64,000 nt of DNA from the NCBI RefSeq assembly GCF_011043775.1, contig NZ_JAAKXY010000003.1, forward strand, positions 62,001-126,000, given 5' to 3'. The stretch is from Natronolimnobius sp. AArcel1 (GTDB lineage: Archaea > Halobacteriota > Halobacteria > Halobacteriales > Natrialbaceae). A program made the position numbers and the translations under genes. The notes under the pieces are model-generated. The model worked only from the letters and a program-made list of their open reading frames with translations. It was not told the DNA's origin and did not search any database. Below, piece by piece: positions 58,244 through 64,000 of this stretch; position 1 is the stretch's first letter; each line of letters starts with the position of its first letter.

Positions 58244-58711
58244 TCACTCTCCAAGAAACCGATTTAATTCACTAAATTCGTCAGGTGAGAGAATAACCTC
58301 GGTGTCGAACGCATCAAATTGTTCAAAGTCATAGTCAATCGTCAATACTGTATTCACTCCTTCATCAATTGCGACCTGAGCGTAGTACCCATCCCACCCG
58401 TTGACGTTTGCATCACGTGAGCGGGAAAGCCCACCTCGAACCACTTCATCGGGCATCTCATCATACCAATGAATTCGTTTTGCGTCCATGAAATTTTCCA
58501 ACAGTCGAGACGCATCTGTGTTCGAGTGTCCGTAGTACGTCGTCAAGACAGTATGTGCACCGAATAGCGCAGGATATGGGACGATAGCATCGATGTCACC
58601 GGTGATGGCATCTCGGACGTATGAGAGCGCAGAAGCACGAACCGGTGTCTCTGTGTGTGCGAGCGCAATGACGCCAACATCGAAAAGATACGGGCCGCTT
58701 GTCTCACTCAT
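58244..58711 (-). CDS. PIN-domain toxin (VapC-like) of an AbrB-type TA pair
   Basis: A 155-residue PIN-type protein. YLFDVGVIALAHTETPVRAS has the first Asp, SNTDASRLLENF and the conserved YAQVAIDEGVNTVLTIDYDF carry later acidic positions (the TIDYDF end is the usual 'T-x-D' strand). ATG 58711 (MSETSGPYLFD) is preferred; the frame upstream is open but overlaps the antitoxin gene in another frame. It overlaps the antitoxin gene's 3' end by 8 bases. Predicted ribonuclease toxin. Intact, without internal stop. Confidence 0.82.
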   Translation of the reverse strand: MSETSGPYLFDVGVIALAHTETPVRASALSYVRDAITGDIDAIVPYPALFGAHTVLTTYYGHSNTDASRLLENFMDAKRIHWYDEMPDEVVRGGLSRSRDANVNGWDGYYAQVAIDEGVNTVLTIDYDFEQFDAFDTEVILSPDEFSELNRFLGE

Positions 58712-58988
58712 CGCGATCTTTTGTTGCGCCCTTTCGAACAGCTGCTCGGTGCGTCTGGGCAACTGGCTCAACGCCTTCGCCAAGCGGGGTCGTCTCTGTT
58801 CGGTCTGCTGTCGCTTCCGCAACAAGATTCTCCATGCGTTCGATAATCTGTTCAGGGTCATCTTCCGGTTCAACGACAACTTTTCCGTCTTCTTCATGAA
58901 TCTCCACTTCCGCTCCAGGAGTAATCCCGAGTCGCTTTCGGACCTCCTGCGGGAGGACGACCCGTCCTTTTGAATCCACGGTGACCAT
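58704..58988 (-). CDS. AbrB/MazE-type antitoxin
   Basis: A 94-residue protein with the swapped-hairpin AbrB DNA-binding domain at the N-terminus: MVTVDSKGRVVLPQEVRKRL, GITPGAEVEIHEEDGKVVVE, with the family mark 'V-x-x-KGR-(V/I)-x-(L/I)-P'. The C-terminal half (DDPEQIIERMENLVAEATAD, VEPVAQTHRAAVRKGATKDR) is the expected toxin-binding tail. ATG 58988 is chosen over upstream in-frame codons because it opens the domain. It forms the fifth TA pair of the 52.7-59 kb stretch and is co-translated with the PIN gene through an 8-base overlap. Confidence 0.88.
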   Translation of the reverse strand: MVTVDSKGRVVLPQEVRKRLGITPGAEVEIHEEDGKVVVEPEDDPEQIIERMENLVAEATADRTETTPLGEGVEPVAQTHRAAVRKGATKDRDE

Positions 58989-59206
58989 ATTCCCACATTC
59001 AGTGGGAAATCTCATAAGAGTTCTGGTCGGAGCTGTAACACCCTCACTACCGAAGTTCGTCGGAATAGTGATCACGGAGAAACAACAGTACTGCATCTGC
59101 GATTAAATCTTTGACACACCGAACGGTACTGCAACCCGGAAGGAACCAGCTACCAGTGGTCAACTGGCTCGTTACTAACCGGAAACACGGTGTCCACCCG
59201 AATACG

Positions 59207-59658: not shown

Positions 59659-60462
59659 TCACTCGCTCTCGACCTGCGTGATAGTCCCGGTCGCAGCAAG
59701 CGTCTCGAACTCGAGTGCGAGATCCTGGCCCACACCGAGGCGCTGACCCTGATAGTAGAGGCCGTCGTCGGTTTCGAGCGCTTCAACCTCGAGTGCTACC
59801 TGAAGGTCCTCATAGCGCGGATGCTCGTGTTCGTGGAGTTCGCCGTCGTCGCTCTCGAGGACGAGCAGCGAAGGCTCGCGCTCGACGTCTGTGACTGTGA
59901 CAACCGTGTCACCACCTTCAGTTGCGGTTGGTCCGGCCTCGAGGGCGTCTCCAAGGGTCGGGTCAACCTCGGTGAGCGACAGCGAAACAGTGGCGCTCGT
60001 GCGTTCCATGTTGAGCGTTGGCTCAGTTCCCAACTCGGAAACGGAGCCATTGACGGCGTACAGTCCGAAATCAACGGTCAAATCGCGATTGAACTGGACC
60101 GGTTCATCGCCGACGTTGATGGTGTCGAGGTCCTCTACGGGTTCGCCTTCGATTTCGAGGCGAAGGAGGGTTTCAGACTGTATCGTCTGGACATCAGTCA
60201 CTGTCGCGTTCTGATCACCTGCGACAGTGCCTTCGGTACCCGGCTCGAGGCGCTCTACGACGTAGTCTGGCTGGGAATCTGCCTCGAGAGTGACGTGTTG
60301 GGTTTCGGTTTCCGTGGCCGATTCGGTGTCTCCCGGTCCAGGGGCACCCATCGTGACGACAGCGATGCCGGCGACGCCGATAGCGAGGACGAGTAAGACC
60401 ACCAGCGCGTCGATGACGTTGACCACACCCAAGAGGTTCCCGTTTTCGTCGATTAGTTCCAT
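59659..60462 (-). CDS. DUF4330 family membrane-anchored protein (short form)
   Basis: A 267-residue paralogue of the protein at 32426-33562. MELIDENGNLLGVVNVIDAL is nearly the same opening signature, followed by the helix VVLLVLAIGVAGIAVVTMG and an acidic beta-rich exterior part (TVTDVQTIQSETLLRLEIEG, LTVDFGLYAVNGSVSELGTE). It is about 110 residues shorter than the other copy. The two lie on either side of the glycan and TA regions and both beside small membrane-protein genes. Composition is host-like. Function unknown; family known mainly from polysaccharide loci. Confidence 0.88.
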   Translation of the reverse strand: MELIDENGNLLGVVNVIDALVVLLVLAIGVAGIAVVTMGAPGPGDTESATETETQHVTLEADSQPDYVVERLEPGTEGTVAGDQNATVTDVQTIQSETLLRLEIEGEPVEDLDTINVGDEPVQFNRDLTVDFGLYAVNGSVSELGTEPTLNMERTSATVSLSLTEVDPTLGDALEAGPTATEGGDTVVTVTDVEREPSLLVLESDDGELHEHEHPRYEDLQVALEVEALETDDGLYYQGQRLGVGQDLALEFETLAATGTITQVESE

Positions 60463-61361: not shown

Positions 61362-61637
61362 ATGAACGATGTGAGCCACTATCTATTCCACACAGCAAGC
61401 ATCACCGTAAGTCGCTCTTGGGACTGTTTCGTGCCCACACTCGAACTCGAGGGTGAGGTGTTTCGACTGCATTCCGTAACCATCAAAAATCACCAGCGGG
61501 GATCCAGGGACGTTTGTCGCGTCTCGACGACAACCGACACCTATTGTCTCGAAATCGAGTGTTTGTCCGCTAAACGATTCCAGTCGTTTATCCATGAACA
61601 GATTGACACGACGTTCGCCGCAGGGGCCTATCAATGA
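61362..61637 (+). CDS. Small hypothetical protein coupled to a secreted protein
   Basis: A 91-residue soluble protein of unknown family. It is predicted to be mostly beta (SITVSRSWDCFVPTLELEGE, VFRLHSVTIKNHQRGSRDVC, RVSTTTDTYCLEIECLSAKR) with a short C-terminal helix (FQSFIHEQIDTTF). Four cysteines at scattered positions do not form a CxxC pair. Its stop overlaps the next start by 4 bases (ATGA), indicating coupled expression. It may serve as a cytoplasmic partner of the exported protein, but nothing proves it. Confidence 0.65.
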   Translation: MNDVSHYLFHTASITVSRSWDCFVPTLELEGEVFRLHSVTIKNHQRGSRDVCRVSTTTDTYCLEIECLSAKRFQSFIHEQIDTTFAAGAYQ

Positions 61638-61990
61638 CTGACAGACAACGACGCTACCGACAGGCGATTACGATCGCTGTTGCTATTGGATTGCTTGGGA
61701 TGACACTCAGCGCTGGCGCAGCGATGGCACAGGAACAGACGGACGGGGTAGACGCTGACAACACCTCAGTCGAACAGGCGAGCGACTCAGTGGCTGAAAA
61801 TGTAACGGTCGAAGAGAGTGAACAGGCAGTCGTCGACGACCAACAGACTGTCGAGGTTGAAGAGACGGTAACCGACACTGGCGACACTGACAGTGCAGAC
61901 CTATTCGACCTCGAGGACGGGTTCTTCGATGACGGATTCACCGATGACGGATTCGGCGATGACTTCCTGACCGGTTCGCTCTTCGAGTAG
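61634..61990 (+). CDS. Small secreted acidic protein
   Basis: A 118-residue protein with a Sec-type signal: basic start (TDRQRRYRQA), hydrophobic core ITIAVAIGLLGMTLSAGAAM and probable cleavage after AMA (residue 32). The mature part is highly acidic (VDADNTSVEQASDSVAENVT) and ends in a short repeat, DGFFDDGFTDDGFGDDFLTG. The mature chain resembles small haloarchaeal matrix or amyloid-accessory proteins only in general character. It is co-translated with the preceding gene and lies 200 bases from the end of the curlin-like gene on the opposite strand. Confidence 0.75.
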   Translation: MTDRQRRYRQAITIAVAIGLLGMTLSAGAAMAQEQTDGVDADNTSVEQASDSVAENVTVEESEQAVVDDQQTVEVEETVTDTGDTDSADLFDLEDGFFDDGFTDDGFGDDFLTGSLFE

Positions 61991-62189: not shown

Positions 62190-63791
62190 TTAGACTGCAG
62201 CCCAGACGTTTGTCGAGGCGACGGCACTGTACTGGATGTTCTCGTTCTCTTGCATCGTCACCTGTGCAGAGTCAGCGCTGCCGGCGTCGTCAGCGACGGC
62301 GATGGCAGCCTGCTGTTCGTTGATGTTCTCCTGTGCAACGAACTGGATCTGCTCGATCTGTGCGCTGGCTTCTTGTTCGACGTCGTTAGTCTGGTTCGCA
62401 TCGGCGTCGAACGCGACACCTGGTGCCTCTTCCATGGCGTCACCGCCGAGCATCACACTCGTCGTGTCCGAAGTGATGACACTGTCGTGTGCGTAGGCGG
62501 GGCCGGCGTAGACGTTCAGCGCGTCAGCGTAGCCAATCTGGCTGTTGACGTTGTTCTGGTGGGACCACTGAACTGCCGTGGCGTCACTGCCGTTGGTGGC
62601 AAGTGCCATAGCCGAACTCTGGAGGTTGACGTTCATCTGCTCGACTTCCTGGCCCTGTGCGACCTCGGAGGTTGCTGACTGTGCCGAGCCGTCGTCTTTC
62701 TTGTGCTCTTTGTCCTTTTGGTCGTCCTTCTTGTCATCCTTCTTATCGTCTTTCTTGTCGTCCGCGTGCTTGTCGTCGTACTTTGTATCGTCGTCTTTGT
62801 CCTCTGCGAGGTCACTCATCGCCGCTGCGGCGTCATCCATCGCACCGTCATCGTCGATGCCGGCCGTTGCGATGCTCATGCCGGACATCATCTCGAGGAT
62901 GTTCGTGCTGTCGGCGGTGGCGATCTGGTCGTTGAAGTTGGTCTGGTCGGTCAGCTGGATCGACGTTGCAGTGCTGTTCTCACCGACTGCGATGGCGACA
63001 GCGCTGTCCTGCTCGTTGTAGTTCGTCTGATCGAGGGACTGTTCCTGGTTGACCGTCGCATCAGCGGACTGGTCGCTGAAGTCACCAGCACCCTGGTAGA
63101 CGTTCGTCGCGTTCGCTGCACCGTGCTGGAGGTTCTGGTTGGACTGCTGGGATTGCTGGAGGGCAACTGCATCGCTCTCGTTCTCCGCGAGCGAGAACGC
63201 AGTGCTCTGTTCGTTGTAGTTGAGCTGGCCAACGACCTGGCTCTGGGTCACAACGGTGTCTGCGCTCTGGTCGGCGTCAACATCGGCTTTGTCGCCTTTC
63301 TTGTCGGCGATGCCCCAGCCGTCGAACTGCTGGCCGTCGCCGTTACCGATAACGACGTTGACGGTGCCGACGTCCTCGAAGTTAGTCTCATCGACCTGGA
63401 CGTTCTGTGCGGCCGCATCAGCAAACTGTTCGTTGTCGTTGTACTGGTTTGCGTCCTGGATTGCGGTCGCCTCACCGCCGTCGATCGAGATCGACGTTGC
63501 GTTATTCTGCTGGTTGATGTTTACCTGATCGACATCCTGGTACTGGTTGATGTCTGCATCAGCTTCACTTCCTGACTGTGCTTCGATGTACTCGTCTAGC
63601 GTTTTGTCGCCGAGATCAGCGCCGAAGACGAGATACAGCTCTTCACCGTTCTCGAGTGCGTGGACTGAACTCTCGGAGGGGTCTTCGCCTGCGGCCGCAG
63701 CCGGTGCGCCGGCCGCGATCATCGATAGGGCGACTATACACGCCATAAGTACTGTCGTATATCGTGAACGTATCGTCGTTGTGTTGCTCAT
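62190..63791 (-). CDS. Secreted protein with five curlin-like repeats (candidate functional amyloid)
   Basis: A 533-residue exported protein. The signal peptide spans residues 1-34 (VLMACIVALSMIAAGAPAAA, cleavage near AAAAG). Five repeats of about 51 residues lie at 81-131, 181-231, 247-298, 377-427 and 479-529. Each has a first half VxQxQxVxQxNxNxQxxA and a second half QxxxQxNxNxQ, ending ADAxNV. The Q-x-N-x-N-x-Q/SxA pattern resembles curlin (CsgA) units, two per repeat, which stack as a beta solenoid in amyloid fibres. Residues 328-368 are an insert of alternating Lys and Asp. A surface fibre or matrix role is inferred. No CsgB- or CsgG-like gene is nearby; the small secreted protein at 61634 is the closest candidate partner. 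Confidence 0.82.
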   Translation of the reverse strand: MSNTTTIRSRYTTVLMACIVALSMIAAGAPAAAAGEDPSESSVHALENGEELYLVFGADLGDKTLDEYIEAQSGSEADADINQYQDVDQVNINQQNNATSISIDGGEATAIQDANQYNDNEQFADAAAQNVQVDETNFEDVGTVNVVIGNGDGQQFDGWGIADKKGDKADVDADQSADTVVTQSQVVGQLNYNEQSTAFSLAENESDAVALQQSQQSNQNLQHGAANATNVYQGAGDFSDQSADATVNQEQSLDQTNYNEQDSAVAIAVGENSTATSIQLTDQTNFNDQIATADSTNILEMMSGMSIATAGIDDDGAMDDAAAAMSDLAEDKDDDTKYDDKHADDKKDDKKDDKKDDQKDKEHKKDDGSAQSATSEVAQGQEVEQMNVNLQSSAMALATNGSDATAVQWSHQNNVNSQIGYADALNVYAGPAYAHDSVITSDTTSVMLGGDAMEEAPGVAFDADANQTNDVEQEASAQIEQIQFVAQENINEQQAAIAVADDAGSADSAQVTMQENENIQYSAVASTNVWAAV

Positions 63792-64000
63792 GAGTTGTTT
63801 TGATTCGTGCCGTGAGAGTCGTTTCTTTTTGCACCTCTCCGGCGTGAACCATCATATCCTGATTACCGTCTTTGTTATCGGTCAGTTGTGCTGACGGTGT
63901 ATGGGACCTACTACGCAGAAGGCGGCGATTTATGGACGGAAGGCGGTGGTTTCGCTAAAGATTATCTCTTGATGTGAACTGATTCAGTAAGAAACTATGT
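63792..64000. other. Upstream region of the curlin-like gene
   Basis: About 210 bases before the start (ATG complement at 63791). On the minus strand AT-rich AAAAAGAAACGACTC lies about 30 bases upstream. CTTATCTCTTGAT-like sequence near 63961 is A/T-rich. No other gene is visible. Confidence 0.4.

Follow-up and report, generated by a model that had tools for sequence, protein, structure and literature searches.

A five-repeat secreted protein of Natrialbaceae-type haloarchaea as a candidate subunit of a functional-amyloid-like fibre

Does a gene near the end of the window (the whole stretch of 64,000 nucleotides of Natronolimnobius sp. AArcel1 DNA that was analysed) encode an extracellular functional amyloid, and is its product a relative of bacterial curli? 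A first-pass annotation had described this gene as encoding an exported protein with five curlin-like repeats and had proposed it as a candidate archaeal functional amyloid. The amyloid part of that proposal is plausible in view of the putative Gln/Asn ladders and the predicted all-beta repeats, while kinship with curlin was not supported by sequence.

The gene and its repeat layout

The gene (62190..63791, minus strand) was called as an open reading frame with an ATG start and specifies a protein of 533 aa, homologues of which were recovered in 48 of the 100 genomes searched (its own included) and in 27 of 54 genera. Residues 1–34 (VLMACIVALSMIAAGAPAAAA; 63690..63791, minus strand) constitute a Sec-like signal peptide with a putative cleavage site, and its hydrophobic segment is kept in orthologues. 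A lipobox reading of the conserved cysteine in this peptide was rejected because the residue sits within the hydrophobic stretch and not every member has it.

Repeat alignment and a repeat profile placed five repeats in the remainder of the protein, all encoded on the minus strand: R1 (residues 77–133; 63393..63563), R2 (residues 177–233; 63093..63263), R3 (residues 243–300; 62892..63065), R4 (residues 373–429; 62505..62675) and R5 (residues 475–531; 62199..62369), the protein ending two residues later, uncapped. When the profile was compared with the 4.56 Mb of the organism's own genome, exactly these five places were matched (E 1e-22 to 5e-19). Additionally, ten Q-x-N-x-N-x-Q motifs are present, whereas shuffling the mature sequence 20,000 times produced 0.035 on average and never more than 2. 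The signal peptide, the number of repeats and the two half-units per repeat were thus correctly recognised at first sight; the metrics were not, as the repeats, which are imperfect, span approximately 57 rather than 51 residues, and the gaps from R1 to R5 measure, in order, about 43, 9, 72 and 45 residues, so that the spacing of 50–80 residues given earlier is wrong for most of them and above all for R2–R3. A Lys/Asp-rich linker insert (residues 328–368; 62688..62810, minus strand) does exist, but it is variable in the orthologue alignment, and the idea of a conserved functional spacer is not supported. Scans of the 533-aa protein against Pfam, NCBIfam and PHROGs gave no matches, and neither the protein nor the repeat profile found a meaningful match in PDB sequence searches.

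The repeat consensus reads AxAxVxQxQxVxQxNxNxQxxAxAIAxxGSxATAxQxxxQxNxNxQxGxAxAxNV, in which positions Q7, Q9, Q13, N15, N17, Q19, Q37, Q41, N43, N45 and Q47 are 95–100% conserved when scored over the five repeats in about 39 orthologues, with small residues kept between them. These Gln, Asn and Ala positions alternate with variable and often acidic ones, and the repeats of the window protein are free of Lys, Arg, Cys and Pro. If alternate residues are assigned to an inward and an outward set, charged residues occupy 0.3% of the predicted inward and 25% of the outward positions, and mean column entropy is 0.50 and 2.68 bits, respectively, contrasts that are partly built in (the entropy above all) since the inward set was picked by looking at conservation; that choice does not account for the near-regular interval of two residues between the conserved positions. 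On our reading of the sequence, the half-repeats would mirror each other about a turn at positions 27–31, bringing N17 opposite N43, N15 opposite N45 and Q13 opposite Q47. Furthermore, same-numbered repeats share 62–70% identity between orthologues as against 38–54% between different repeats within one protein, which suggests that the five putative layers are old and distinct and were fixed before the family spread.

Family, partner gene and flanking sequences

When sampling was widened to the class, matches came from 58 of 292 genomes, 55 of them in the same taxonomic family and three in two other families of the order; a phylum sample added no members from outside. Homologues occur in Natrialba, Natronolimnohabitans, Natrinema, Natronoglomus and Natronorubrum, as well as in a Natrialbaceae metagenome bin. 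Judged by sequence comparison, the five-repeat proteins are a family of their own, mainly of Natrialbaceae-type haloarchaea. All 54 distinct major proteins carry exactly five repeats, and across the family the R2–R3 linker is short (7–36 residues) while the other linkers measure 35–80 residues.

Three C-terminal types are distinguishable among these proteins. The commonest is a short end, 35 of the 54 members stopping 2–6 residues past R5. Some members carry a long acidic/lysine linker followed by a PGF-CTERM-like end, which the NCBIfam PGF-CTERM model recognised above cut-off in L040, L023 and L026 and which was assigned by tail pattern at further loci; the same NCBIfam scan found no such sorting domain in the window protein. 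The third type comprises six members with lysine-rich ends (L089–L092, L079 and L080), tails that are unusual for haloarchaeal secreted proteins. Archaeosortase processes PGF-CTERM proteins and thereby fixes them to the cell surface, and the presence of this domain in relatives therefore speaks for the family being located at the surface.

The consistent neighbour, oriented divergently, encodes a small secreted protein; it is situated just beyond the end of the window (L041:6440-6946) and present as a single copy in the genome. The product measures about 106–214 aa and has a signal peptide that is strongly conserved. By tblastn and reading of open reading frames, the gene was located in 34 of the main set's 37 testable loci (two contigs that were cut fall outside these 37), L008, L023 and L035 being the three in which it was not found. 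The repeat model scored at least 8 bits for 11 of 25 small proteins (44%), as against none of 1250 shuffles. The best of them, from L028 and L030, hold one whole repeat each (44.5 and 42.8 bits), and the remainder show at most a half-unit or weak repeat similarity. Next to the lysine-tailed members no partner gene turned up, and next to PGF-CTERM members only a few did, which gives at most a hint that partner and C-terminal tail may replace each other, because detection is less sensitive at the tailed loci. The pair of small genes on the other side (61362-61990), earlier suggested as possible accessory genes, was rejected in that general role: both adjoin the gene only in L003, a locus of the same genus, with weak partial matches in L013 and L018.

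Upstream of the major gene, a conserved element (GTAGG-N27-GATAACAAAG; 63870..63911, minus strand) keeps a constant distance to the start codon in different genera. In 36 of 39 loci the GATAACAA block begins 85–88 bp ahead of the start codon, an invariant GTA lies about 33 bp further upstream, and the combined pattern occurs once in the organism's own genome. This block may serve as an operator or belong to a conserved mRNA leader; Rfam gave no match in the intergenic region. The leader of the small gene (L041:6300-6440 and its equivalents) contains a long inverted repeat, GGGCAACGCGTCACA...TGTGATGCGTGCC, which ends approximately 20 nt before the start codon and the arms of which differ yet remain complementary in some genera. 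Single leaders fold with z-scores of -1.4 to -5.0, and MAFFT/RNAalifold yielded a consensus of eight pairs with one pair changed on both sides, for which reason no proven RNA structure is claimed.

As regards the wider neighbourhood, Cdc48-like and LarC-like genes were recognised by eye. A gene for a DUF4330 protein (59659-60462, minus strand; E 8e-31) lies downstream and is also found near the gene in the Natrialba loci L032, L037 and L039. Overlapping frames at 58244-59096 (minus strand), one with a start resembling AbrB/SpoVT (VDSKGRVVLPQEVRKRLGI) and the other for a PIN-domain-like protein, have by eye the look of a VapBC-type toxin–antitoxin pair.

Predicted structure and competing explanations

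Structure prediction, which had been proposed as a check on the amyloid reading, agreed with it in that AlphaFold2 (ten sequences) placed strands in all five repeats (pTM 0.48), with block pLDDT values of about 50–76 in the repeats and mostly below 50 in the linkers; a two-repeat model was nearly all strand (pTM 0.36), confidence in the models being no more than moderate. The top PDB fold match of both models was Pseudomonas FapC (9nqd), a lead rather than a result as regards a Greek-key layer fold, since the Foldseek E-values of 0.13 and 0.43 are not significant and the TM-scores are low.

From the sequence pattern and these models, we consider it somewhat probable that Natrialbaceae-type haloarchaea form an extracellular functional-amyloid-like fibre and that this protein is its polymerising major subunit. 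Each repeat would fold into one flat layer of two kinked beta arms facing each other across the turn at 27–31, with Gln, Asn and small residues pointing inside the layer. The five layers would stack, the Gln/Asn side chains forming hydrogen-bonded ladders and the linkers projecting sideways. Since most members lack a cap where the chain ends at R5, the R5 face left exposed on one molecule could template R1 of the next and so extend a fibre. The small partner protein may start, cap or pace this growth, and the PGF-CTERM or lysine-rich tails of other members might tether the fibre to the cell surface. It would probably function as a biofilm or cell–cell matrix fibre.

The most serious alternative, which we regard as unlikely but well short of negligible, is a beta-solenoid surface protein or adhesin that stays monomeric and does not polymerise. 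Its layers would stack within one molecule, and on the S-layer it would act as a rigid spacer or provide a binding surface. Gln/Asn ladders occur also in monomeric beta-solenoids. The constancy of five layers in every member could point to a closed structure of set size, a conserved N-terminal segment (ENGEELYLVFGADLGDKTLDEYIE) could be its cap, and the PGF-CTERM-bearing relatives suit a surface protein. However, the short C-terminal ends of the 35 members described above leave an open edge, and a single-repeat partner makes more sense for a growing stack. A fixed copy number, moreover, is also the rule in FapC (three) and in enterobacterial CsgA (five) (PMC12822426). The absence of a cap is nevertheless clear at the C-terminus only, and residues 35–76 could cap the N-terminus.

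It is far less probable that the protein is a true curlin (CsgA/CsgB) which diverged in a high-salt lineage. The alternating Gln, Asn, Ala and Ser strands, the five repeats, secretion and the small partner gene would fit such an origin, as would the occurrence of apparently genuine haloarchaeal curlins in two genomes of the same archaeal family: L043:1300-2037 (minus strand) and L044:994-1617 (plus strand) encode secreted proteins with repeats of about 20 residues (ADVDQRNxAxVxQDGKNND) that score above the Pfam Curlin_rpt cut-off (30.2 and 27.4 bits), the L043 copy additionally resembling the CsgB/CsgA models (E 2e-27, below the equivalog cut-offs). The window protein itself, however, gave no match to Curlin_rpt (PF07012) at E 10 in the HMM comparison that had been suggested for it, nor did any protein of its own genome, while the E. 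coli control was recovered. By hhalign its repeats scored 9.0 against curlin, inside the shuffled background (up to 11.4), where the positive control of curlin against haloarchaeal curlin scored 15.0. The supposed identity of Gln/Asn spacing with CsgA also dissolved, the CsgA motif Q-x-G-x-G-N-x-A-x(3)-Q being present five times in E. coli CsgA but in none of the 54 proteins of the family, and Q-x-N-x-N-x-Q having no occurrence in CsgA. Furthermore, the curli repeat is about 22 residues as against 57 here, and CsgG (PF03783) is absent from the genome, a control having matched. Archaea are without the outer membrane that CsgG serves.

Least credible of all is a low-complexity, intrinsically disordered acidic secreted protein without an ordered fold, since the composition of the mature protein (19% Gln+Asn, 20% Asp+Glu) and pLDDT values below 50 over 285 residues are countered by the strict position-specific conservation across many genera, the in/out alternation and the confinement of the low-confidence residues mainly to linkers and the N-terminus.

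Taking the polymerising fibre subunit as the preferred reading, the five-repeat family offers a concrete fibre-protein candidate in many cultured haloarchaeal genera. If this is true, the imperfect-repeat Gln/Asn-ladder layer would have been reached more than once, here under a strong acidic proteome bias; such a fibre would be made in the absence of the pores and chaperones employed by bacteria; and a fibre design stable at high salt would be available for materials work.

Comparison with known systems

No sequence test applied showed the window protein to be a relative of curli or Fap. Its likeness to CsgA/CsgB extends to the residue alternation, repeat number and secretion noted above and to an adjacent gene comparable with that of the minor subunit, and the difference lies in the motif and repeat length, the long linkers, and the lack of CsgG and of HMM or profile similarity. 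The curlin-repeat proteins of L043 and L044 likewise carry secreted Gln/Asn repeats and differ in that they pass the Curlin_rpt model, which the window protein fails. The accessible part of a GTDB v226 survey names bacterial phyla only for curli and Fap operons (PMC12822426).

Among archaea, the best-described functional amyloid is the methanogen sheath of the MspA/SH family (PMC10593813, PMC11576556), similarly an extracellular amyloid-like protein. SH proteins, however, have a core of two sheets with six antiparallel strands each and form hoops (PMC11576556), and no fold or sequence match to the window protein was seen. Amyloid dyes stain biofilms of Haloferax volcanii (PMC4180959), which makes a haloarchaeal amyloid plausible; the five-repeat family is, however, found in few haloarchaeal families only. 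No described haloarchaeal fibre protein of this kind was found in the open-licence papers searched, in agreement with the first-pass annotation.

FapC of Pseudomonas is described as a secreted protein with three imperfect repeats, variable linkers, one cross-beta layer per repeat and a conserved Asn/Gln network, accompanied by a second repeat-bearing subunit that acts as nucleator (PMC12392863, PMC12822426); the repeats measure 38–39 residues and bear a GN-psi-G-psi-N motif (PMC12392863). The haloarchaeal protein resembles it in secretion, fixed repeat number, long variable linkers, conserved Asn/Gln and a repeat-bearing second protein, and differs in having five repeats of 57 residues rather than three of 38–39, in belonging to another domain of life and in the motif, which none of the 54 family members contains. 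As there is no outer membrane, a FapF-type pore would not be expected. By analogy, the design with its large putative layers, fixed repeat number, long linkers and conserved Asn/Gln core seems closer to FapC than to CsgA. A bolder proposal, which we hold to be arguable though less secure than the fibre itself, is that of a third functional-amyloid class, independent of curli and Fap and so far confined to haloarchaea, in which a five-layer major subunit and a divergently transcribed single-layer minor subunit would be assembled without outer-membrane machinery and fixed to the surface by the partner, an archaeosortase anchor or a polylysine tail.
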